The notes below the pieces were generated by a model, which saw nothing but the letters and a program-made list of their open reading frames with translations, did no database searches and was not told the DNA's origin. This document shows, in pieces, positions 16,675 through 29,640 of a stretch of 44,332 nt of DNA (position 1 is its first letter; each line of letters opens with the position of its first letter). The position numbers were made by a program, and so were the translations under genes. The DNA comes from Sphaerobacter sp. (GTDB lineage: Bacteria; Chloroflexota; Chloroflexia; Thermomicrobiales; Thermomicrobiaceae): NCBI RefSeq assembly GCF_019683595.1, contig NZ_JADGHZ010000012.1, positions 1 through 44,332 on the forward strand. The letters run 5' to 3'.

Positions 16675-18993
16675 TCAACGCGTCTTGGCCGTCTGGATGG
16701 CCTGCCAGATGCGCTGCGGTGTGAGCGGCATGTCCAGGTGGGTGATCCCGAGCGGGGTGAGGGCATCCAGTACGGCGTTCACCACCGCGGGCGGTCCACC
16801 GGTTGTCCCGGCCTCACCGACGCCCTTGACTCCCAGCGGGTTGAACGGGCTGGGGGTGACGGTGTGCGCGGTTTCCATGGCGGCAAGCGAGGGCATCTGC
16901 GGGGCGCGGAGCGGTCCGTAGTCCAGGAAGGAGCCGGTCATGGGCTGTCCGGCCTCGTCATAGACGATGGCTTCCTGCAGCGCCTGCCCGAGCCCCTGCG
17001 CCAGCCCGCCGATCACCTGCCCCTCAACAAGCTGGGGATTGATGACCGGGCCGCAGTCGTCGACCGCGATGTAGCGCCGGAGCGTGATTCGGCCCGATTC
17101 GGGATCGACCTCGACCACCGCAGCGTGGGCGCCGAAGGGGAAGGTGCGCCCAGGCGGCATGAAGTAGGCGGTCGCCTCCAGGCCCGGCTCGAGGCCGCCT
17201 GGCGCGCCGGTAAAGGCGTAGGCGGCTCGGGCGACGGCTGCGAAGTCTACGGCGCGATCCGGGGCGCCACGGACGCTGAACACGCCGTCGGCAGCGGTGA
17301 CGTCATCCTCCGCAACCTCCAGCAGATGGGCGGCGATCCGCTGCGCTTTGTCGCGAACCTGTCGGGTGGCCAGGAGCACGGCCGACCCGCCGATGGAGGT
17401 TCCGCGGCTGCCGAAGGTGCCGATGCCCTGCGGGGTGATCGCGGTGTCGGAGGCGCGGACGGTGACCGCCTCAAGAGGGACGCCGAGTTCGTCGGCCACG
17501 AGTTGGGCGAAGGTGGTCTCCTCACCCTGGCCGTGCGGCGAGATGCCCGTGGTCACGACGACGGCGCCGCTCGGAAGCACGCGCACGGTGGCGCTGTCCC
17601 AGCCTGGCCCGGCGAACTCGCAGTAGACGGCGAGGCCGACGCCGACGAGCCTACCCTCGGCGCGGGCCGCGCGCTGTTCCTCGCGGAGCCGGGCGTAGTC
17701 GAGACGCTCCAGGGCCTCATCCAAGGCCCGGGCGTAGTTGCCGCTGTCGTAGACGACCCCGGTGGCGCCGGTATACGGGAAGGCGTCGGGCGGGATGAAG
17801 TTGCGGCGCCGGACGTCCGCCGGGTCGAGCCCGAGCTCGCGCGCGATGGCGTCCATCAGCCGCTCCAGCATATAAGCCGCTTCGGGGCGCCCCGCGCCGC
17901 GGTAGGCGCCGGTCGGGGTCGTGTTGGTCATCACGCCGCGCACTCGGACCCGCAGGTTCTGGATACGGTAGGGACCGCCGGACATCAGCGCCGTGCGCGT
18001 CGCCACGGTGGCCGCCGAGTAGGCGCCGAGGTTGCTGATCAGGTCGACGTCGAGGCCGAGCACGACGCCCTCCTCGGTGACTGCGGCCCGGAGGATCTGG
18101 ATCTGATCGCGGCCGTGGTTGGTGGCAAGGAAACTCTCGCTGCGGGTCTCCGTCCACCGGACGGGGCGCTGGAAACGGTAGCTCAGCGCGGCGGTCAGGA
18201 CGTACTCCGGGTAGATCCCACCCTTGCTGCCGAACGCTCCGCCGACGTCCGGTGCGATGACTCGCACCGCGTGCTCGTGCAGGCCGAGCGCGCCGGCGAT
18301 CCCGCCACGCAGCGTGTGGGGAACCTGCGTCGACGCCCAGACCGTCATTTCTCCGGTGGCCGGGTCGAAGCGGGCCTGCGCCGCGCGTGGCTCGATGAAG
18401 GCCGCATAGACGCGCTGGTTCACCAGCCGAAGTGACACGACCCGCGCCGCGCGGGAGAAGGCTCCCTCCACATCGCCGTGGTCGATCGTCCAATCGTAGG
18501 CGACGTTGTTGCCCCACTCGGGGTAGAGGAGCGGCGCGTCCTCGGCGAGCGCTTGCTCGGCATCGACCACCACGGGAAGGGATTCGTAGTCGACCGTCAC
18601 CAGGTCCGCGGCATCGCGCGCGGTGTACGCATCGTTCGCGATGACCACCGCGACGGCGTCCCCGACGAAGCGCACGCGGTCGAGCGCCAGCGGGTAGCGT
18701 CGCAGGACGCGTCCCGGTGGGGCGTCCGGGCGGGTTTCGAGCGGCTGCATCATGTCCGCGATGTCCTGGCCGGTGAGGATGGCGACCACCCCAGGGACGG
18801 CCGCTGCCGCGTCGGTGTCAATCCCCCGAATCCGCGCGTGGGCGTACGGGCTGCGCACGATGGTCGCGTGCAGCGTGCCCGGAAGGCGGACGTCGTCCAC
18901 GAAGGTGCCCGCTCCCGTCACGAGGCGACCATCACCGACGCGGCGAACCGATTGGCCGACATAGCGACGCGTTGCCTGGTTTCCGGCAATCAT
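16675..18993 (-). CDS. Form II molybdenum hydroxylase large subunit (second CoxL-like)
   Basis: Molybdopterin-binding large subunit of the xanthine dehydrogenase / CO dehydrogenase family. The 772-residue protein has the N-terminal a/b hammerhead domain (VGQSVRRVGDGRLVTGAGTF) and the Mo-cofactor domain with GGAFGSK, the active-site loop GAYRGAGRPEA (Tyr364, Arg369), SPHGQGEETTFAQ and the catalytic Glu727 in KGVGEAGT. The loop is AYRGAGR (form II) and lacks the Cys of the AYxCSFR loop that holds copper in proven CO dehydrogenases. ATG start with GGGAGGGG upstream. No small or FAD subunit gene is next to it; it lies at the end of the accessory run (coxD to nudix) and may use the coxS/coxM products encoded further upstream. 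Substrate unknown. Confidence 0.85.
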   Translation of the reverse strand: MIAGNQATRRYVGQSVRRVGDGRLVTGAGTFVDDVRLPGTLHATIVRSPYAHARIRGIDTDAAAAVPGVVAILTGQDIADMMQPLETRPDAPPGRVLRRYPLALDRVRFVGDAVAVVIANDAYTARDAADLVTVDYESLPVVVDAEQALAEDAPLLYPEWGNNVAYDWTIDHGDVEGAFSRAARVVSLRLVNQRVYAAFIEPRAAQARFDPATGEMTVWASTQVPHTLRGGIAGALGLHEHAVRVIAPDVGGAFGSKGGIYPEYVLTAALSYRFQRPVRWTETRSESFLATNHGRDQIQILRAAVTEEGVVLGLDVDLISNLGAYSAATVATRTALMSGGPYRIQNLRVRVRGVMTNTTPTGAYRGAGRPEAAYMLERLMDAIARELGLDPADVRRRNFIPPDAFPYTGATGVVYDSGNYARALDEALERLDYARLREEQRAARAEGRLVGVGLAVYCEFAGPGWDSATVRVLPSGAVVVTTGISPHGQGEETTFAQLVADELGVPLEAVTVRASDTAITPQGIGTFGSRGTSIGGSAVLLATRQVRDKAQRIAAHLLEVAEDDVTAADGVFSVRGAPDRAVDFAAVARAAYAFTGAPGGLEPGLEATAYFMPPGRTFPFGAHAAVVEVDPESGRITLRRYIAVDDCGPVINPQLVEGQVIGGLAQGLGQALQEAIVYDEAGQPMTGSFLDYGPLRAPQMPSLAAMETAHTVTPSPFNPLGVKGVGEAGTTGGPPAVVNAVLDALTPLGITHLDMPLTPQRIWQAIQTAKTR

Positions 18994-19224: not shown

Positions 19225-19755
19225 TCATGGAGCGCGATCGGGGGACGGTGATGCGGACGATCCGGCACGCCAGGCGGCGATGATCTCAGCGTCGTGGGGG
19301 AAGGCGAGGGGCGGCAGATCGTCGGGAGAGAAGAGCCCGACGGCGTCGCTTTCATCCCCGCAAGAGAGGTCGCCGTCGACCACTTCGCCGGCGTAGACCG
19401 CGAGGACCACGATGTCGCCCGGCTCGGCGTAGAGGCCGATCAGCCGTGTCAGGCGGACGGTCAGCCCGACCTCTTCCTGTACCTCACGGACGGCCGCCAC
19501 CTCCGGCGGCTCGCCTCGATCGACGTAACCGGATGGGAAGGTCCAGGCACCGAGGCCCGGGTCGATGCTGCGCCGTTGCAGCACGACCTTCCCGTCCTGC
19601 TCGATGACGACGGCCACGGCGAGTTTCGGGTCGGCGAAGAAAGTCTCGCCGCAGGCAGGGCAGTGGGGCCGAGACCGTCCGGCGACCTCGCGCTGCTCGA
19701 CCGGGCGGCCGCAGTGGGGGCAGAAGCGGATCTCGCCCACGATGTTCACGCTCAC
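19225..19755 (-). CDS. Zinc-ribbon Nudix hydrolase
   Basis: Hydrolase of nucleoside diphosphate-linked compounds. The 176-residue protein starts with a zinc ribbon (Cys12, Cys15, Cys32, Cys35) followed by the Nudix fold with a complete Nudix box at residues 76-98 (GX5EX7REVQEEVGL). The zinc ribbon before the box recalls NudC-type NADH pyrophosphatases, but the protein is shorter, and I cannot name the substrate. The GTG start overlaps the stop of the preceding mocA-like gene as GTGA and has AGGAGG upstream, so it is translationally coupled into the molybdenum-hydroxylase accessory operon. Confidence 0.85.
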   Translation of the reverse strand: MSVNIVGEIRFCPHCGRPVEQREVAGRSRPHCPACGETFFADPKLAVAVVIEQDGKVVLQRRSIDPGLGAWTFPSGYVDRGEPPEVAAVREVQEEVGLTVRLTRLIGLYAEPGDIVVLAVYAGEVVDGDLSCGDESDAVGLFSPDDLPPLAFPHDAEIIAAWRAGSSASPSPDRAP

Positions 19756-20366
19756 CGTGATTCCTCCTGCCGTGCGGTGAAGCGTTCCCGGGCGCGCTCG
19801 TAGTCGTCGGGAGTGTCGATGTCGACGGGGCGGGAGAACTCGCTCACGTCGGCGAAGGCGATCAGGTCACGGTGCTGTACCAGCAGGGGGCGGGCGCCCA
19901 CGTCGCCGCGGAGGCGGCGCAACTCGGGGAAGAGCTCGCGGGCGATCAGCACGGGGTTGCCTCGGCCTTCGGCATAGCGCGGCTGGACGATCGGGGATCG
20001 CGTGCCGCGGTACGTCTCGACGATCCGCTCCAGCACCGGCACGGCGACCTCGGGCTGGTCTCCAAGCAGAAAGACCGCGGCCTCCACGTCGTCGGGCAAC
20101 GCCTCGACGGCGGCGATGACCGAGGTGCTCTGACCCTCGCGGTAGCGGGGATTGCAGACGATCTGGGTGCCGGTGAGGTCGACCTGGGCCTTGATCTCGC
20201 TTGCGGCGCTGCCGAGGACGACGAGCAAGGGGTCGAGCGGCGCTTGGCGTGCTGCATCTAACACATAGTCGAGGATCGGGCGGCCGCCGAGGGAGAGGAG
20301 CTGCTTCCGGCCGCCGATGCGGGTGGCGGCCCCGGCGGCGAGGACGACACCGGCAACGCGGGGCAT
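19752..20366 (-). CDS. MocA-like molybdenum cofactor cytidylyltransferase
   Basis: Nucleotidyltransferase of the MobA/MocA family. The 204-residue product has the N-terminal nucleotide-binding signature LAAGAATRIGGRKQLLSLGG (about residues 9-28), the conserved GQSTSV and the metal-binding LLGDQPE. Close relatives next to molybdenum hydroxylase genes convert molybdopterin to the cytosine dinucleotide cofactor (MCD), which fits enzymes of the CoxL family. The ATG at 20366 is 2 bases from the end of the xdhC-like gene, and the stop overlaps the Nudix gene. Confidence 0.85.
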   Translation of the reverse strand: MPRVAGVVLAAGAATRIGGRKQLLSLGGRPILDYVLDAARQAPLDPLLVVLGSAASEIKAQVDLTGTQIVCNPRYREGQSTSVIAAVEALPDDVEAAVFLLGDQPEVAVPVLERIVETYRGTRSPIVQPRYAEGRGNPVLIARELFPELRRLRGDVGARPLLVQHRDLIAFADVSEFSRPVDIDTPDDYERARERFTARQEESR

Positions 20367-20368
20367 GG

Positions 20369-21172
20369 CTACGTGCCGGATTCGCCTGCGGCCGGGGCTG
20401 CGTCGGCCTTGGCCGGGGCCAGGCCCGATCCGGGCTGGCGCGGGTCGCGGCCACGACGTACCGCGATGATCTCGGCGAGGATGCTGACCGCGATCTCCCC
20501 CGGGGTTCGTGCACCGATGTTGATGCCGATCGGCCCGTGGATGCGGGCGATCTGCTCATCGGTGAAGCCGGCGGCGCGGAGACGCTCGTTGCGCTCGGCG
20601 CTGGTCTTCTTGCTGCCCATGGCGCCGATGTAACCGGCCCGGCTGCGCAGGGCGACCTCCAAGGCGGGATCCTCGAACTTCGGATCGTGCGAGAGCAGCA
20701 CGATGTCCGTCTCCGGCCCGAGCGGGAGTTGCGACAGTACCTCGTCCGGCCAGCCGACGATCAACTCCCCCGCATCGGGGAAGCGTTCGCGGGTGGCGAA
20801 GAACTCGCGCGCATCGACCACGATGGTGTAGTAGCCGAGCTCCCGCGCGAACTTCTCGAGTGGGATGGCGGTGTGGACCGCGCCGACGATGATCATGCGC
20901 CGCGGCGGGCGGTGGCTCTCGATGTACACGTCCGCCGTGGTCGCGTCGTCGAGGGTGTAGGTGCGTGTCTGGGCCTCACCCCGTGGCAGCAACTCCAGCG
21001 CGTCGGCCGCGACGCGCGCATCCAGTTCCGGGTTCCCGAGCGAGCCCGACCGGCGCCCATCTTCATAGACGAGGAGTTTGGCGCCCACCTGCTCGCCGGC
21101 CACGACGGTGGCCAGGGCGACCGGGATTTCCTGGTTGATCGCGTCGCGTAGCTCCTGGAACGTGGCACTCAT
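20369..21172 (-). CDS. XdhC/CoxF-like maturation protein, large
   Basis: Member of the XdhC/CoxF family, which binds molybdenum cofactor, helps its sulfuration and delivers it to the hydroxylase. The 267-residue product has an N-terminal XdhC-like part (about 1-90) and a C-terminal Rossmann domain (PPRRMIIVGAVHTAIPLEKF, then LGYYTIVVDAREFF, ALRSRAGYIGAMGSKKTSAE, GPIGINIGARTPGEIAVSIL). The N-terminal part lacks the two cysteine motifs seen in the small neighbour. ATG 21172 is chosen because it has GAGG about 8 bases upstream; the frame upstream overlaps the neighbouring gene. Confidence 0.85.
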   Translation of the reverse strand: MSATFQELRDAINQEIPVALATVVAGEQVGAKLLVYEDGRRSGSLGNPELDARVAADALELLPRGEAQTRTYTLDDATTADVYIESHRPPRRMIIVGAVHTAIPLEKFARELGYYTIVVDAREFFATRERFPDAGELIVGWPDEVLSQLPLGPETDIVLLSHDPKFEDPALEVALRSRAGYIGAMGSKKTSAERNERLRAAGFTDEQIARIHGPIGINIGARTPGEIAVSILAEIIAVRRGRDPRQPGSGLAPAKADAAPAAGESGT

Positions 21173-21515: not shown

Positions 21516-22784
21516 TCAGGCCGCGGGCGAGCTTGCGCCGCTCATCATCAGCGGCTGCTGGCGCCGGTCCGGGCGGTGATCGTCGATGGTGCTGAGGTGC
21601 TTGGCGAGCGCCTCAAGGCTCGCCAGGTTGTGGACCGGCATGAAATCATCAACGTACGGGAGGGCCGCCTGCATTCCCCGCGTGAGCGGCTCATAGCGCG
21701 GCGAGCCGAGGAGCGGGTTCAACCAGATCAGCCGGTAGCTGCTGCGCTGGAGCTTGGCGATCTCCCGGCGCAGGATCTCGGGGTCGCCGCGGTCCCAGCC
21801 GTCGCTGATGATCAGGACCACGGCGCCGTTGCGCAGCACGCGACGCGCCCAGTCCTGGTTGAACGTCTGGAGCGACTGGCCGATGCGTGTCCCGCCGGAC
21901 CAGTCCTGCACCTCGCGCGAGACACGCTCCATCGCCTCGTCGATCGAGCGGTGGCGTAGCAGCCGGGTGACGCGGGTGAGCCGCGTGCCGAAGACGAATG
22001 CCTCGACCCGAGCCATGCCGTTCTCGATCGCGTAGATGAACTGGAGCAGGATCCGCGAGTAGCGGTCCATCGAGCCGCTGACGTCGCAGATCACCACCAA
22101 CTGACGCGGCTTCAGCTTCACCTGGCGCCGGGAGATGCGCAGCGGCACGCCCGCGGTTTGCAGGCTGCGGCGCATGGTGCGGCGCGGGTCGATGAAGCGC
22201 CCCTTGGGCGAGGCGACCTTCCGCCGCGATCGGCGCTTGCCCAGGCGCCACTGGAGGTTCTCCATCAGCCGGCGGGTCTGGGCCAGCTCGTCCTCGGTCA
22301 GGTCGGCAAAGTCCTTCTCGCGCAGGATCTCCGCCGCGCTGTAGCTGAAGACGTCGGACTCGCTGTCGCTGTCGTCGAGATCCGCCGCCTCTTCGGAGGA
22401 CTCCACCATCTCCAGGCGGCGGCGACCCTCCGCACCCTCGCGCTCGGCGCCGTCCTGCTGCTGTTCGCCCTCGCCCTCCTCCGCTTCTTCGTCCTCGAAG
22501 GGGATGGTGTCGTCCGGCTGGACGCCTTCGGGGGCCTCAACCGTGAAGTCCGGCTTGGCCCGCCAGTAGATGTCGAAGATCTTGTCGAAGACCTCGAGGT
22601 CGTCCCGGTGCGTGACGAGGCAGGCGCGCGCGGCCTCGCGGAACTCTGACCGGCGGCCGATGTCGATGTGTTCGACGGCGCGCACGAAGTCCATGACCTG
22701 CCCGGACGTGGTGTTGATCCCCGCCCGGCGCAGCGCACGCCCGAACCTGATGGCGCGGTTGACAAAGGTGTCCGGTGTGGCCAT
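21516..22784 (-). CDS. coxE: CoxE-type von Willebrand factor A domain protein
   Basis: Accessory protein that, with the AAA+ ATPase CoxD, matures the metal site of CODH-type molybdenum hydroxylases. The 422-residue product has an N-terminal helical part, a highly acidic middle (about residues 95-150, runs of Glu and Gln such as EDEEAEEGEGEQQQDG), and a C-terminal VWA domain with an intact metal-ion-dependent adhesion site (ICDVSGSMDRYS) and the SGGTRIGQSLQTF loop. It is 6 bases after coxD, and the ribosome site is weak, which suggests coupling to coxD. Confidence 0.88.
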   Translation of the reverse strand: MATPDTFVNRAIRFGRALRRAGINTTSGQVMDFVRAVEHIDIGRRSEFREAARACLVTHRDDLEVFDKIFDIYWRAKPDFTVEAPEGVQPDDTIPFEDEEAEEGEGEQQQDGAEREGAEGRRRLEMVESSEEAADLDDSDSESDVFSYSAAEILREKDFADLTEDELAQTRRLMENLQWRLGKRRSRRKVASPKGRFIDPRRTMRRSLQTAGVPLRISRRQVKLKPRQLVVICDVSGSMDRYSRILLQFIYAIENGMARVEAFVFGTRLTRVTRLLRHRSIDEAMERVSREVQDWSGGTRIGQSLQTFNQDWARRVLRNGAVVLIISDGWDRGDPEILRREIAKLQRSSYRLIWLNPLLGSPRYEPLTRGMQAALPYVDDFMPVHNLASLEALAKHLSTIDDHRPDRRQQPLMMSGASSPAA

Positions 22785-22790
22785 GTTCCG

Positions 22791-23693
22791 TTAGCTTCCG
22801 CTCGCCGCTGTAGCGGTCGAGACAAGGGAATCCAACTTGTTCTTCCGGATCGCGTGCACGTCTTCCTGGTGCTTAAGGATGGCCCCGAGCGTTGCAGACG
22901 CGATCTCGGCGGTCAGTTCCTGCTGGTTGAGCGCCAGGAGCGCGGCGGCCCAGTCCAGCGTCTCGGCGACGCCGGGCAGCTTGTACAGATCTTCCCGCCG
23001 CAACTGGTGGATGAAGACCGCCACCTGCTGAGCCAGGCGCTCCGAGATCCCCGGCACCTTGGCTGTGATGATCCGCAGCTCCTTCTCGACGTTCGGGTAG
23101 TCGATCCAGTGGTAGAGGCAGCGGCGCTTGAGCGCGTCGTGCAGCTCCCGAGTCCGGTTCGACGTGATGATCACGATGGGCGGCGTCTCCGCCCGGATTG
23201 TGCCGATCTCCGGAATCGTGATCTGGAAGTCCGACAGCAACTCGAGGAGGAACGCCTCGAATTCCTCATCGGCCCGGTCGATCTCGTCGATCAGCAGGAC
23301 GGGCGCCTTCCCCTTGTGGCGAACCGCCTGGAGCAGCGGGCGCTCGATGAGATACTCGGAGCTGAAGATCTCCTCCATGGCCTCATCGCGCGCGACCGAC
23401 TTGTCCTCCAGGAGGCGGATCGCCAGCATCTGGCGGGGGTAGTTCCACTCATAGACGGCGTGGCTGACGTCGAGCCCCTCGTAGCACTGGAGGCGAATCA
23501 GGTCGGTGTCCAGGATCGCGGCCAATGCCTTGGCGACCTCGGTCTTGCCGACGCCGGCCTCGCCTTCGAGCAACAGGGGCTTGGGCAGGCGAAGCGCCAG
23601 GAAGATCGCCGTGGCGAGGCTCTCCTCGCAAACGTACCGCTGAGTGGCAAGCGCCTTCTGAACTGCTTCAACAGAGTTGAGTTCCAAGCACAT
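22791..23693 (-). CDS. coxD: CoxD-type MoxR AAA+ ATPase
   Basis: MoxR-family AAA+ ATPase, in CO dehydrogenase clusters the partner of CoxE for metal centre assembly. Counting from ATG 23693 the 300-residue protein has Walker A GEAGVGKT at residues 44-51, Walker B VLLIDEIDRADEEFEAFLLE and the sensor region IITSNRTRELHDALKRRC. The start is uncertain: ATG 23693 sits right behind GAGGTG, a TTG two codons downstream (23687) would be better spaced from it, and an ATG at 23741 would add 16 residues. It heads the accessory run; a TGCTATCAT extended -10 lies about 65 bases upstream. Confidence 0.88.
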   Translation of the reverse strand: MCLELNSVEAVQKALATQRYVCEESLATAIFLALRLPKPLLLEGEAGVGKTEVAKALAAILDTDLIRLQCYEGLDVSHAVYEWNYPRQMLAIRLLEDKSVARDEAMEEIFSSEYLIERPLLQAVRHKGKAPVLLIDEIDRADEEFEAFLLELLSDFQITIPEIGTIRAETPPIVIITSNRTRELHDALKRRCLYHWIDYPNVEKELRIITAKVPGISERLAQQVAVFIHQLRREDLYKLPGVAETLDWAAALLALNQQELTAEIASATLGAILKHQEDVHAIRKNKLDSLVSTATAASGS

Positions 23694-23756
23694 CACCTCA
23701 TGGAATCCGGGTGATCCCGGTCCGACATTCCGTCCGTGCATAGGGCACCGTGTTCA

Positions 23757-24042: not shown

Positions 24043-24906
24043 CTAGCCGCGCGCGGCCGCAACGGCGCGCGAGAGCGCCCGCTGGGTGAAGACCCGCGCG
24101 AGGTGCGCCCGGTACTCCTCCGAGGCGAAGATGTCGCCGTTCAGCTCCAGACCCTCGGCGGCGTGGGCGGCTGCGCTCTCGATGGCCTGCTCGGTCGGCT
24201 CCTGCCCGGCGAGCGCCTGCTCCACCGCGCTGGCCCGCTTGGCGACGGTGCCGGCACCGGTGATCCCGACGCGGACCGTCTGGACCTTGCCACCGTCGAG
24301 CGTCACGAAGGCCGCTACCCCCACGACCGCGTAGCCCGAGGCGGGGTGGGCGAACTTCTCATACGCCTGCCCTGAGGTGCCCTGCGGCTTCGGGAAGATG
24401 ATCTGGGTGAGCACCTCGTCGGGGCTGAGGGCCGTGGTGAACATATCGACGAAGAACTCGCTCGCCGGGATGGTCCGCTCGCCGTTCGGTCCGACCACCT
24501 TCATCGAGGCGTCGAGCGCGAGGGCGACGGCCGGCATATCCGCGGCCGGGTCGGCGTGCGCCATCGCACCGCCCAGCGTGCCGCGGTTGCGGACCTGGAT
24601 GTCGCCGACCACATTGGCCGCCTCGGTGATCAGCGGGAGCGACTGCCGGATCACATCCGACTGTAAGAGGTTCCAGTAGGTGGTGGTGGCCCCGACGACA
24701 ATGCTGTCGCCCGCGTCCTGGATCCCGTTCAGGTCCGGCACGCGCCCGATGTCGATCAGGGCAGCCGGCTCCGCCAGGCGGAGCTTCATCATCGGGAGCA
24801 AGCTATGACCACCGGCGAGAATCTTGCCGTCCGGGTGCTGCTGCAGGAGCTGGACGACCTCGGGAACACTCGTTGCCCGGTAGTATTCGAAAGCTGCCGG
24901 ATACAT
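24043..24906 (-). CDS. coxM: Molybdenum hydroxylase FAD subunit (CoxM-like)
   Basis: Medium, FAD-binding subunit that passes electrons from the iron-sulfur subunit to the respiratory chain. The 287-residue protein has the two FAD-binding motifs of the family, AGGHSLLP (residues 31-38) and RGTLGGAMAHADP (TLGG at 110-113), and the C-terminal CODH flavoprotein domain (FAHPASGYAVVGVAAFVTLD). AAAGGAAG lies upstream of the ATG. It is 4 bases after the coxL gene and is the last gene before the terminator. Confidence 0.92.
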   Translation of the reverse strand: MYPAAFEYYRATSVPEVVQLLQQHPDGKILAGGHSLLPMMKLRLAEPAALIDIGRVPDLNGIQDAGDSIVVGATTTYWNLLQSDVIRQSLPLITEAANVVGDIQVRNRGTLGGAMAHADPAADMPAVALALDASMKVVGPNGERTIPASEFFVDMFTTALSPDEVLTQIIFPKPQGTSGQAYEKFAHPASGYAVVGVAAFVTLDGGKVQTVRVGITGAGTVAKRASAVEQALAGQEPTEQAIESAAAHAAEGLELNGDIFASEEYRAHLARVFTQRALSRAVAAARG

Positions 24907-24910
24907 CGAT

Positions 24911-27268
24911 TCAGCTTCCTTTCTGCGACTCCTGGATCGCCTGCCAGATCCGCTGCGGCGTCAAGGGCATGTCCAGATGCGTGATGCCGTACGGCTTCAG
25001 CGCGTCAATGATGGCGTTGACCACCGCCGGCGTCGACGCGATCGTCCCGGTCTCACCGGCCCCCTTGAGGCCCATCGGGTTGACGGGCGTCGGGGTGACG
25101 GTGCGATCGACCTCGTAGGTCGGCACCATGCTGGCAGTGGGGAGCGCGTAGTCCATCAGCGAGCCGGATAGGAGTTGGCCGTTCTCGTCGTAGACGGCCG
25201 TCTCGTAGACGGCCTGCGCCAGCCCCTGGGCGATCCCGCCGTGGACCTGCCCGTCCACGATCATCGGGTTGATGACGTTGCCGACGTCGTCCACCGCGAC
25301 GTAACGGAGGAACTGGACCTTGCCCGTGGCCGGGTCGACCTCCACTACGCAAACGTGGGTGCCGAACGGGTACGTGTTGTTGATCGGGTCGAAGAAGTGC
25401 GTCTCCTCCAGGCCCGGCGTGACGCCCTCCGGCATGTTCCAGGCCAGGTAGGCGGCACCGGCGACCTCCTGGAAGGTCTTGACCCGATCAGGCGCGCCCT
25501 TGACGTAGTAGCGGCCCTGATCGAAGACGATGTCGTCCGGGGAAACCTCCAGCAGGTGCGCCGCGATCTTGGCGCCCTTGTCCCGGACCTTGCGGGCGGC
25601 GTAGATGAGCGCGCTGCCGCCGACCGCGGTGCTGCGGCTACCGTACGTCCCCATGCCGAAGGGGATGCGGCCGGTGTCGCCGTGCACGATCTCGACGTCG
25701 TCCAGCGGCACGCCGAGCTCATCGGCCACGAGTTGGGCGAAGGTCGTCTCCTCACCCTGCCCGTGCGGGTTGGAGCCGGTGAAGACCGAGACCTTGCCGC
25801 TGGGGTGGACGCGGACCGTCGCGCTCTCCCAGAGGCCACCCTGGAAGCCCATCGCGCCGGCCGCCTGGGACGGTGCCAGGCCGCAGACCTCGACGTAGGT
25901 GGAGAACCCGATGCCGAGGAGCCGGCCTTGCGCCCGCGCCGCTTCCTGTTCCTTGCGGAACTGCTCGTAGCCGACGATCTCCAGCGCCCGGTTCAGGGCG
26001 GCCTCGTAGTCGCCGCTGTCGTACTGGAGCGTGGTGGCGACGGTGTACGGAAACTCCTCCTTGGGGATGAAGTTCTTGCGGCGGACCTCGACCGGGTCCA
26101 TGCCCAGCCGGTCGGCCACTAGATCCATCATCCGCTCCAGGACGTAGGTCGCCTCAGGCCGGCCCGCGCCGCGGTAGGCGTCGGTCGGGGTGGTATTCGT
26201 CAGGACTCCGTGGACCTCGACGCTGATGTTCGGGATCTTGTACGGACCCGAGAGCATCAGCCCGAACAGCCAGGTGGGCACGCCGGGCGCGGCCGTCGAG
26301 AGATAGGCGCCCATGTTGGCGTACGCCTTGACCCGAATGCCGGTGATGGTACCGTCTTGCTTCGCGGCAACGTCGACGTAGTCGATGTGGTCCCGGCCGT
26401 GAGTGGTGGCAACGAAGTTCTCGCGGCGGTCCTCTACCCACTTGACGGGCCGCCCGAGATCCTTGGAGATGGCGACCGCGATCATCTCCCCGGCGTAGAA
26501 GGGAATCTTCGAGCCGAAGCCGCCGCCGACATCAGTGGCGATGACCCGGATCTTGGTCTCGGGGATGCCGGTGACCGCCGACATCAGCAGGCGATGGATG
26601 TGCGGGTTCTGGCTGGTGCACCAGAGCGTCAGCTCGCCCGAGCCGGGGTTGTAGTGGGCTACGGCGGCGCGCGGCTCCATAGCGGTCGGGATGAGCCGGT
26701 GGTTGATCAGCCGCTGGGAGACGACCACGTCCGCATCGCGCAGCGCGGCGTCGATGTCGCCGCCGGCCAGGCGCCAGACGAATGCCGTGTTGTTGGGTAC
26801 ATCCGCGTAGAGCTGCGGCGCGCCGTCCTGCGTGGCCTTCTCCTGGTCGACGACCGCCGGCAGCATCTCGTACTCGACCTCGATCGCGGCCGCCGCATCC
26901 TGTGCCTGGTACCGGTTCTCCGCCACCACCGCGGCGACGCCGTCGCCGACGTAGCGGACCGTGTCAACGGCGAGCGCGCGGTACTCCGGAACCTTCAGAT
27001 CGGAATTGGGCGGCAGCCAGGCGCACGGGACGGGAGCAAGGGAATCGACAAGATCCTTGCCGGTGTAGACGGCGACCACACCGGGCATCTGGCGCGCCTT
27101 CTCGACGTTGATCGACTTGATGCGGGCGTGCGCGTAGGGGCTGCGCAGGATCACCAGCGAGAGCGTGCCGGGCAGACGGACGTCGTCCGTGTAGTTAGCC
27201 CGGCCGGTGATCATTCGGGGGTCTTCCCGCCGTTTGACTGAGGCACCGAACATCTTCGTGACGGCCAC
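24911..27268 (-). CDS. coxL: Form II molybdenum hydroxylase large subunit (CoxL-like)
   Basis: Molybdopterin-binding catalytic subunit of a three-subunit hydroxylase with coxS and coxM. The 785-residue protein has the hammerhead domain (ASVKRREDPRMITGRANYTD), GGGFGSKIPF, the active-site loop DAYRGAGRPEA (Tyr365), NPHGQGEETTFAQ and catalytic Glu739 in KGAGETGT. As in the second copy, the loop is AYRGAGR (form II) without the copper-binding Cys of form I. Annotation as CO dehydrogenase is therefore tentative; aldehyde, purine or other substrates are possible. GTG start 27268 with a perfect AAGGAGGT ribosome site. Placed between coxS (63-base gap) and coxM (4-base gap). Confidence 0.88.
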   Translation of the reverse strand: MAVTKMFGASVKRREDPRMITGRANYTDDVRLPGTLSLVILRSPYAHARIKSINVEKARQMPGVVAVYTGKDLVDSLAPVPCAWLPPNSDLKVPEYRALAVDTVRYVGDGVAAVVAENRYQAQDAAAAIEVEYEMLPAVVDQEKATQDGAPQLYADVPNNTAFVWRLAGGDIDAALRDADVVVSQRLINHRLIPTAMEPRAAVAHYNPGSGELTLWCTSQNPHIHRLLMSAVTGIPETKIRVIATDVGGGFGSKIPFYAGEMIAVAISKDLGRPVKWVEDRRENFVATTHGRDHIDYVDVAAKQDGTITGIRVKAYANMGAYLSTAAPGVPTWLFGLMLSGPYKIPNISVEVHGVLTNTTPTDAYRGAGRPEATYVLERMMDLVADRLGMDPVEVRRKNFIPKEEFPYTVATTLQYDSGDYEAALNRALEIVGYEQFRKEQEAARAQGRLLGIGFSTYVEVCGLAPSQAAGAMGFQGGLWESATVRVHPSGKVSVFTGSNPHGQGEETTFAQLVADELGVPLDDVEIVHGDTGRIPFGMGTYGSRSTAVGGSALIYAARKVRDKGAKIAAHLLEVSPDDIVFDQGRYYVKGAPDRVKTFQEVAGAAYLAWNMPEGVTPGLEETHFFDPINNTYPFGTHVCVVEVDPATGKVQFLRYVAVDDVGNVINPMIVDGQVHGGIAQGLAQAVYETAVYDENGQLLSGSLMDYALPTASMVPTYEVDRTVTPTPVNPMGLKGAGETGTIASTPAVVNAIIDALKPYGITHLDMPLTPQRIWQAIQESQKGS

Positions 27269-27331: not shown

Positions 27332-27826
<495 letters not shown>

Positions 27827-27882: not shown

Positions 27883-28326
27883 CTAACCACCGCTGATCTG
27901 CTTCTCGATGCAGCTGAAGAACTGTTCCACCATGCGCCGGGCGACGCCGCCGAGCATGCGCTGCGCAACCGAGCCGACGGGGCCACCGACCTCGACGTCG
28001 CCCTCGTAGGTGATCTCAGTCGAACCGTTGGCGCCCTCTGCCAGGCGGAGCATGCCCGTGCCCTTGACGAACCCGGGTCGGCCCGATCCTTCGATGTGCA
28101 TCTCGTAGCTCTCGGGCGGGTTGAGGTTGGCCAGCGACACTTTCCCGGAGTAGGTCCCGCGGACCGGCCCAACGCCCACGGTCATCGCCATGGTGTACTC
28201 GTTTTCGCCGACCTTCTCGAGCTGTTCGACGCCGGGCAAGCAACCGGCGATGGCATCGGGATCAATCAGTTTGTCCCAGATCGCCTCGCGCGGCGCCTGC
28301 ATGGTGTACGAACCTGAGATTTTCAT
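27883..28326 (-). CDS. coxG: CoxG-like protein, SRPBCC fold
   Basis: CoxG-family protein; in CO dehydrogenase clusters CoxG is involved in anchoring the enzyme to the membrane. The 147-residue product has the START/SRPBCC-type sequence with the conserved N-terminus [20 protein letters not shown] and the CLPGVEQLE motif, and ends with a C-terminal amphipathic helix ([17 protein letters not shown]). It is the first gene of the coxGSLM operon, 56 bases before coxS, with a GGGGGTAGG ribosome site and a good promoter about 280 bases upstream. The long leader holds no gene that I can see. Confidence 0.9.
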
Positions 28327-28650: not shown

Positions 28651-29454
28651 CTACCAGCCATAGGGGATGTTGCGCCGCGGGTTGAGGTGGGGGAAGATGC
28701 CCGCCTCCCGCAGCGCCGCGACCCGGCGAAGGAACATCTCGACCTCCTGCCGGGTGAGATACGGCCGCAGTGTGGCGCGCACTCGGTCAGCCTCGCGCTC
28801 CAGGGCCGCCATCGCCTCCAGCAACTCTGGCTCGATCGGCTGGCCACAGAAGTCCCAGATGACGGTGCGCAGCTTGGGATGGACGTGGAAGGTCAAACCG
28901 TGGTCGATGCCCCACAGTTGCTGTTCGTCACCGCCGACGAAGCAGTGGCTCGCCTTTCGGTCCGCGTTGTTGGTGATAAGGTCGAAGAGCGCGATGCGCT
29001 GTAACTGGCTGGTGAAGTCATCCCCAAGCCTCCCGTCGTGCACGCCCCGGGCCGGCTCCACGTAGAGCTGAACGGTGCCAACCCCGTGAGGCCCGTTGCG
29101 GATCACGACAGGCGGCACGAAGTACCACCCGAGCATGCAACTGACCAGGAACGCCGCGTACTCCCGGCGGTAGAGGGTCCCGGAGGGGAAGTCCCAGAGC
29201 GGGATCTCGCCATCGCGTGGCTTGTAGATGGCGACGGTCGGTGGGTGCTCGTCGTGCTCCAGGCGGACTGCGAAGGTGTAGTTCGACCCCCAGGGAACGA
29301 GCTCGCAGTCGGTGATGCGCGCCTCCCGGAGGAGGCGGAGTATGGCGTCATCCGGGGCATGCCAGGTGCATCGATCGACTGGAGCGAGTCTCGGGGGGAT
29401 CCCCGGGGAGTCTCCGTCACGGTCGGTGCGGTTGCGTGGGAGGAGGTCGGTCAT
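28651..29454 (-). CDS. SCO1664-family protein with PI3/PI4-kinase-like fold
   Basis: A 267-residue protein of the family called SCO1664 in Actinobacteria, with a phosphatidylinositol-kinase-like catalytic core: a Lys-containing VAIYKPRDGE strand, the active-site region ALFDLITNNADRKASHC and the metal-binding IDHGLTFHVHPKLRTVIWDF. Its biochemical role is not known; relatives occur in organisms using cofactor F420. The ATG at 29454 is chosen because it has GGGAAG upstream and because the longer frame adds 39 low-complexity residues. It lies on the same strand as the cox operon but upstream of its promoter, so it is a separate unit. Confidence 0.8.
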   Translation of the reverse strand: MTDLLPRNRTDRDGDSPGIPPRLAPVDRCTWHAPDDAILRLLREARITDCELVPWGSNYTFAVRLEHDEHPPTVAIYKPRDGEIPLWDFPSGTLYRREYAAFLVSCMLGWYFVPPVVIRNGPHGVGTVQLYVEPARGVHDGRLGDDFTSQLQRIALFDLITNNADRKASHCFVGGDEQQLWGIDHGLTFHVHPKLRTVIWDFCGQPIEPELLEAMAALEREADRVRATLRPYLTRQEVEMFLRRVAALREAGIFPHLNPRRNIPYGW

Positions 29455-29640
29455 AGCACTTCCCGGATTGGGGCGACGGCCCGATGCGACGTGGTCACAG
29501 CGTGTCGGTGACAAGTGTACCCAACGGTGGCGGTTCGGAGGCACGCCCCGTGCCTTCAGAAGCGGTGGCACGGATCACGCGCGTCGGACGTTCTCGTGTG
29601 GACGTGCCTGAATGGGCGCCAGTATGGAGGGAGTCTTCTG

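Follow-up and report, generated by a model that had tools for sequence, protein, structure and literature searches.

We consider it likely that the cox cluster described here from a Sphaerobacter genome encodes a copper-free form II molybdenum hydroxylase with its own set of general maturation factors, that the CoxD and CoxE proteins of this set also serve a form I carbon monoxide dehydrogenase (CODH) encoded at an unlinked locus, and that a YHS domain found at the form I locus is the copper-specific element. The cluster lies in the window, i.e. the whole stretch of 44,332 nucleotides that was analysed, which corresponds to contig C185; the draft genome is 3.89 Mb in size, with a completeness of 99.98 %. 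On the minus strand its genes follow in the order hyp-coxG-coxS-coxL2-coxM-coxD-coxE-xdhC(N)-xdhC-mocA-nudix-coxL2b-hyp, and the features are collected in Table 1.

Table 1 Features of the form II cluster, with their positions in the window and the evidence for each
Feature	Position	Strand	Evidence
CoxG, SRPBCC family; membrane recruitment/quinone partner, not maturation	27883..28326	-	PF06240 117.8 bits (cut-off 22.2); 33 % identity with Afipia CoxG
CoxS, [2Fe-2S] small subunit	27332..27826	-	PF01799 125 bits, PF00111; 71 % identity with form I CoxS of the same genome
P0001, form II large subunit, 785 aa	24911..27268	-	TIGR02416 802 bits, below 991; PF02738/PF20256/PF01315; in the tree with Azospirillum form II, outside form I
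AYRGAGR loop of P0001, residues 364-370, no Cys	26159..26179	-	Translation
CoxM, FAD medium subunit	24043..24906	-	PF00941 177 bits, PF03450
CoxD, MoxR-type AAA ATPase	22791..23741	-	PF07728; 56 % identity over 286 residues with O. carboxidovorans CoxD
CoxE, VWA protein	21516..22784	-	PF05762 241 bits
Stand-alone N-terminal domain of XdhC/CoxI, 103 aa	21181..21492	-	PF02625 100.8 bits
XdhC with Rossmann domain, 267 aa by gene call; open frame to 21241	20369..21172	-	PF13478 143.6 bits (longer frame)
MocA-like molybdenum-cofactor cytidylyltransferase	19752..20366	-	PF12804; TIGR03310 156 bits, below cut-off 186
Nudix hydrolase; cluster member conserved in the family	19225..19755	-	PF00293 77.7 bits
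P0002 (L2b), second large subunit, 772 aa	16675..18993	-	PF02738 278 bits; no CoxS/CoxM of its own adjoining
AYRGAGR loop of P0002, residues 363-369	17887..17907	-	Translation

A protein encoded upstream of coxG, at window positions 28651-29571, has no Pfam match and is kept beside the cluster across the family; judged by eye, it presumably resembles SCO1664-type kinase-like proteins. A further large subunit, in which AYRGAGR was not found by pattern, is encoded at locus L009 (G000:C192, 4306-11351). It is accompanied by a CoxM-type gene and a 155-aa gene, and the set adjoins carboxyltransferase-type subunits (CT_A_B, CT_C_D), a LamB_YcsF protein and a small biotin/lipoyl carrier.

An earlier reading of the window, made from the sequence only, had held that both large subunits have AYRGAGR and lack the AYxCSFR loop. 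The translations bear this out: AYxCSFR is absent from both P0001 and P0002, and the interval given for the loop, 26155-26190, contains 26159-26179. Among the named relatives of P0001, taken as the best 80 of 581 found, the closest is from a Sphaerobacter MAG (91 % identity), and 79 have the AYRGAGR loop; in the remaining one, L066, the loop was not picked up by the search pattern. A chance loop or a misread frame is ruled out by this conservation. With the form I CODH model TIGR02416 the scores of P0001 and P0002 were 802.1 and 667.5 bits, respectively, both below the cut-off of 991. Two glyceraldehyde dehydrogenase models (NF041018/NF041019) gave scores just short of their cut-offs, 765/790 for alpha and 325/350 for beta. 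In alignments with CODH structures, the Cys-Ser-Phe of the loop is replaced by Gly-Ala-Gly in P0001, and the stretch is one residue shorter on either side.

The large-subunit tree had 83 rows, i.e. all 40 form I rows, 15 chosen and 28 random ones, from 146 extracted, and was built by a quick method with SH-aLRT as the only support measure. The 40 form I rows formed a single group with support 100, outside which both P0001 and P0002 fell. P0001 was placed with Azospirillum sp. B510 (L158) inside a 31-row group with support 99, and P0002, outside that group, was in an 8-row group with support 96 together with the C153 pair. Since the two proteins fall in separate groups, AYRGAGR marks more than one clade; nor is it peculiar to form II. 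The window unit combines S-L-M order and AYRGAGR, as in form II, with the hammerhead, the two Moco-binding domains and the [2Fe-2S] and FAD subunits of the xanthine oxidase family, and it is an ordinary form II cluster. Its substrate is presumably other than CO. CoxD occurs with 37 and CoxE with 29 of the best 80 of 581 relatives of P0001, many of these stretches being short; these counts and the gene order in Azospirillum identify CoxD and CoxE beside form II as a common layout.

A search for a separate form I cluster in the genome, which had been proposed as a check in the sequence-only reading, was positive. One of seven MoCoBD large subunits in the genome, encoded on contig C221, has the loop AYRCSFR and scores 1288.6 bits against the TIGR02416 cut-off of 991. 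The C221 unit reads M-S-L-XdhC, and the C-terminus of its XdhC is a YHS domain (58.8 bits, cut-off 30.3). The XdhC of the window has no YHS domain in a profile search and no cysteine in its 267 residues. The searches of the genome's contigs gave no CoxD, CoxE or CoxG match on C221, which stops about 55 bases beyond coxM. Genome-wide, a single strong match was obtained for CoxD (633 bits, next best 22) and one for CoxE (243 bits, next 28.8 and 25.9), both in the window; CoxG scored 117 bits in the window and had one further match, of 54 bits, on C313. As form I is encoded in a cluster of its own and the genome offers no further strong match to CoxD or CoxE, the window CoxD and CoxE probably serve both the form II and the form I enzyme.

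The same arrangement was found in related genomes. In the two-contig Sphaerobacter genome G001 (2,741,033 and 1,252,731 bases; 99 %), form I is on C2 and form II on C1, and the sole strong matches, to CoxD with 619 bits (next 27) and to CoxE with 244 (next 33), are beside form II on C1. Form I was seen in 12 genomes of the family including the window's own, with an interrupted reading in G002, and in each of the 12 a single strong CoxD match was obtained, located on the contig with form II; nearly every candidate was scored in these searches. The form I unit on the Thermomicrobium roseum megaplasmid also reads M-S-L-XdhC, D, E and G are not annotated there, and of 75 CoxD match records, the 20 best, which were listed, do not include the plasmid. 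As for CoxG, it is a sole match on the form II contig in G010, G018 and G002, and a sole match at the edge of another contig in G016; in G014 just a weaker copy was found (84 bits), and in G003 and G008 there is a further CoxG of 88-89 bits on the contig of form I, 43-49 kb from it. Sharing of CoxG between the forms is thus possible, in some species only. A MocA-like nucleotidyltransferase was observed about 3 kb upstream of seven of the 11 mapped form I units of the family (L110-L115, L117), and on the T. roseum plasmid (L122) a nucleotidyltransferase-family gene lies upstream of form I, behind a sensor kinase and a response regulator.

CoxD and CoxE are also kept in family members without a form I CoxL over the cut-off, e.g. 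G004, G005, G012 and G017. In G004 (4 contigs, 96 %) the form II unit is complete. In G005 (L170) and G012 (L171/L172) the counterpart of P0001 is deleted except for its last 49 residues, and the other genes of the unit are retained, i.e. G, S, M, D, E, the two XdhC pieces, MocA, Nudix and L2b; the G012 unit spans two contigs and E is broken between them. No strong CoxD was found in G015, whose contigs break there (L174, L175), or in G020, which is 54 % complete. Since coxD and coxE are kept in relatives with no detected form I, in two of them even after deletion of P0001, they appear not to be copper-specific. If form I is truly missing from G005 and G012, CoxD and CoxE would there serve L2b or another large subunit. 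The retention of the rest of the unit with L2b where P0001 is deleted suggests that L2b uses S, M and maturation factors common to both large subunits.

In a phylum sample of 399 genomes with a completeness of 90 % or more, form I exceeds the TIGR02416 cut-off in 69, leaving 330 others. The best two (form I) or five (CoxD, XdhC-YHS) first-look candidates were scored per genome, so weak extra copies can be missed. The gene maps were drawn by similarity to reference proteins, and a draft assembly may lack some genes. CoxD was counted at 1e-95 or better only, the basis for this limit being a weaker band in 63 genomes at about 1e-78 to 1e-94, which includes genomes without any TIGR02416 match, e.g. 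G089 and G161. CoxD of this strength is present in 65 of the 69 form I genomes compared to 118 of the 330 others. The four form I genomes without a clear CoxD are drafts (G270, G295 and G090, and G327 with the paralogue band only), and given these genomes CoxD may not always be necessary. XdhC-YHS was found in 68 of the 69 form I genomes, three times as split matches, compared to only five of the 330 others. The form I genome without it, G270, has L and then CoxG on a 5.65-kb contig. Three of the five others (G290, G361, G373) have a cut form I CoxL adjoining XdhC-YHS, G358 is represented by a 3.1-kb contig reading CoxG-CoxE-XdhC-YHS-XdhC(N), and in G138 the gene is at a contig edge. In G320 and G156, XdhC-YHS and form I are on different contigs.

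Linkage of CoxD with form I was assessed in 60 of the 69 genomes: it is linked in 13, unlinked in 43, and four are those without a clear CoxD. Listed positions gave 41 unlinked and eight linked cases, to which fetched maps added two and five, respectively. Seven of the 13 are linked via an adjoining form II unit and six directly with form I, D and E being joined to form I in G431, G106, G287, G193, G170 and G322. The seven include L125 and L131, whose CoxD rows had been labelled form I by the nearest-L rule of the script and were reread as form II because a form II-type CoxM lies upstream and L is off the contig start. L082 has a separate D/E set for each form, and form I is joined to D and E also in Afipia, Natronorubrum and Deinococcus. 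A CoxD tree of 60 rows was built by a quick method; support for its deep forks is weak, and several of its form I rows form long branches. In it the window CoxD is in a 10-row group with support 98 consisting of form II rows only, and all 11 CoxD read as directly joined to form I are outside this group. If the form I enzyme of this genome uses the window CoxD, it thus uses one of form II descent.

The YHS tail follows the copper enzyme closely. Of the Afipia proteins, CoxF (36 %, 124 bits) is closer to XdhC-YHS than CoxI is (55 bits), and CoxF is the proposed copper supplier (PMC4240915). The YHS domain scores 50.8 bits in the form I XdhC of Natronorubrum and 29.1 bits, under the cut-off of 30.3, in Deinococcus; none was found by profile search in Afipia CoxF, Afipia CoxI or the Azospirillum form II XdhC. 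As Afipia CoxF is without it, the domain is not required everywhere. Among 29 aligned YHS stretches, DP[VI]CGM is found in 25, and 27 combine a Cys-x3-Cys pair with an Asp placed three residues ahead of a Cys; L126 (no Asp) and the Deinococcus stretch (without the Asp-Cys pattern) depart from this. L056, also among the 29, is located upstream of a form II unit, and no form I L is present in that stretch. For one YHS domain a response specific to Cu has been demonstrated, and an Asp and three Cys are its proposed ligands (PMC4626032). The YHS-tailed XdhC is thus a candidate copper carrier, and our literature search found no paper that brings the YHS domain together with carbon monoxide dehydrogenase or XdhC. 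Tandem YHS-like stretches were also seen behind form I coxL in L152 (from 8302 and 8455) and L153 (from 10157 and 10346).

According to PMC4240915, the active site of the Oligotropha carboxidovorans CODH needs coxD, coxE and coxF, coxD being assigned to sulfuration and coxE and coxF to copper insertion, and coxG mutants contain a complete and active CODH, so that coxG has no role in maturation. PMC4735515 calls coxDEF or coxG necessary for maturation and reports them near form I. The sequence-only reading was right that coxG, coxD and coxE are present (PF06240, a MoxR-type AAA protein and PF05762), and its treatment of coxG as a maturation gene does not stand. CoxG has been presented as a quinone partner in PMC13240472, which credits Kropp et al. 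2025. PMC13240472 also describes the activity of form II as unresolved, and in about 27 % of the 864 genomes it covers, coxG is placed elsewhere in the genome.

In the mechanism we propose, CoxS, CoxL2 and CoxM would form a copper-free molybdenum hydroxylase, the second large subunit probably using the same S and M. CoxD, CoxE, the split XdhC and MocA would be general late-maturation factors and not the mark of a copper site, their most likely job being sulfuration and loading of the cofactor, and CoxG would link the form II enzyme to the membrane. The same CoxD and CoxE, and perhaps CoxG, could act in trans on the form I Mo-Cu CODH, made by coxMSL and an XdhC whose C-terminal YHS tail is the likely copper-specific factor. 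The paradox of coxG, coxD and coxE beside a non-copper enzyme largely dissolves, given that coxG has no part in maturation and that coxD and coxE are not specific to copper. Two options had been offered for it earlier, and the view that the accessory genes act generally is favoured by the retention of CoxD and CoxE in genomes with no detected form I and by the Azospirillum unit, the maturation of another centre being less favoured; service to a separate form I enzyme, which had not been listed, also fits. Some findings speak against our reading: the direct linkage of D and E with form I in six of 69 genomes and the separate sets in L082 mean that sharing is not universal, the case for sharing CoxG is weaker given the second CoxG of G003 and G008, and a role of coxE in copper insertion suits a copper-free client less.

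The rival that comes closest would have CoxD and CoxE work for form II only, with form I matured by its own XdhC-YHS and housekeeping factors. The form I genomes without a clear CoxD, three of which have XdhC-YHS, are in its favour, as is the fact that CoxD and CoxE accompany form II with or without a detected form I. We nevertheless consider it unlikely, as the O. carboxidovorans active site depends on coxD, coxE and coxF (PMC4240915), nearly all form I genomes have CoxD, and form I is in some genomes, within the phylum and beyond it, joined to D and E directly. That the form II site holds another metal or ligand instead of copper, assembled by CoxD and CoxE, would explain why CoxE, a copper-insertion factor in O. 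carboxidovorans (same source), is retained with form II; with Gly-Ala-Gly where form I has Cys-Ser-Phe, and a window XdhC lacking both cysteine and YHS domain, this is very improbable.

The historical view of form II, in which the window enzyme would itself be a physiological CODH, draws on its nearest relatives in the PDB, the CODHs (8uem, 741 bits), which come before quinoline 2-oxidoreductase (525 bits), and on the high expression of an apparent counterpart in T. roseum under the CODH label (PMC6776052). Against it, the copper-ligand Cys is missing, the TIGR02416 score is below its cut-off and a dedicated form I enzyme is present in the same genome, and we regard this view as extremely unlikely. 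The end of C221 shortly past coxM leaves room for form I to have its own coxDE inside an assembly gap. With the M-S-L-XdhC unit occurring without D and E in G001 and on the complete T. roseum plasmid, such an artefact has next to no probability, and the loss of form I helpers in a gap is ruled out by G001. The preferred reading is hence that of a copper-free form II enzyme whose general helpers also serve form I. Its extension to much of the phylum is more tentative, and we would put it at somewhat short of an even chance: Mo-Cu maturation would be spread over two loci, with CoxD and CoxE from form II and YHS-XdhC with form I, the CoxG of form II maybe being used as well.

T. roseum oxidises CO (PMC2615216, PMC6776052), and its form I enzyme is trd_A0564-6 on the megaplasmid (PMC2615216). 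The transcriptome study PMC6776052 assigns type I to the structural genes trd_1206-1208 and the maturation genes trd_1209-1215, with coxGSLM described as the structural operon and the accessory genes as forming an operon of their own; the upregulation of a form I CODH by T. roseum is repeated in PMC13240472. In the Thermomicrobium form II clusters L028 and L029 and their close relatives L148 and L149, G-S-L-M is followed by seven genes, i.e. D, E, XdhCn, XdhC, MocA, Nudix and L2b, with an additional 85-aa frame in L148. G-S-L-M and seven genes, compared to M-S-L-XdhC on the plasmid, fit trd_1206-1215 better, and from gene order and count the type I transcripts of 2019 appear to derive from the form II cluster. 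The CO-uptake data of PMC6776052 would stand even with this relabelling. The caution urged earlier about automatic CODH labels is thus supported.

The assembly of the Mo-S-Cu site and the roles of its helpers are known, apparently, mainly from O. carboxidovorans mutants. Here the helpers can be told apart by association, CoxD and CoxE occurring with enzymes that lack the copper loop and the YHS-tailed XdhC with the copper enzyme, and their division of labour is now testable in CO-oxidising strains. On the more tentative phylum-wide reading, the CoxF-like, YHS-tailed XdhC would deliver the copper and accompany the copper enzyme alone, and in some species form I might even reach the quinone pool through the CoxG of the form II cluster. 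The presence of cox accessory genes is no marker of a CO dehydrogenase, and one published expression study appears to have tracked a form II cluster.

Among the named systems, glyceraldehyde dehydrogenase resembles the window enzyme in scores alone, near the threshold yet below both model cut-offs. The T. roseum CODH genes of PMC6776052, a coxGSLM operon and seven accessory genes, are arranged like the Thermomicrobium form II clusters and those of their close relatives; they are called type I there, and the form I genes are on the megaplasmid in M-S-L order (PMC2615216). The form I unit of Oligotropha/Afipia carboxidovorans pHCG3 has homologous M, S, L, D (56 %), E (38 %) and G (33 %), with M-S-L order, the copper Cys loop and D-E-F-G directly after L, while the window has S-L-M order and no Cys loop. 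The unit on pAB510c of Azospirillum sp. B510, classed as form II in this analysis by its loop and gene order (S-L-M-MoxR-VWA-XdhC-XdhC), shares with the window the S-L-M order, AYRGAGR, the MoxR ATPase, the VWA protein and the two-protein XdhC. Compared to it, the window has CoxG in front, and the MocA-like protein, the Nudix hydrolase and the second large subunit behind.
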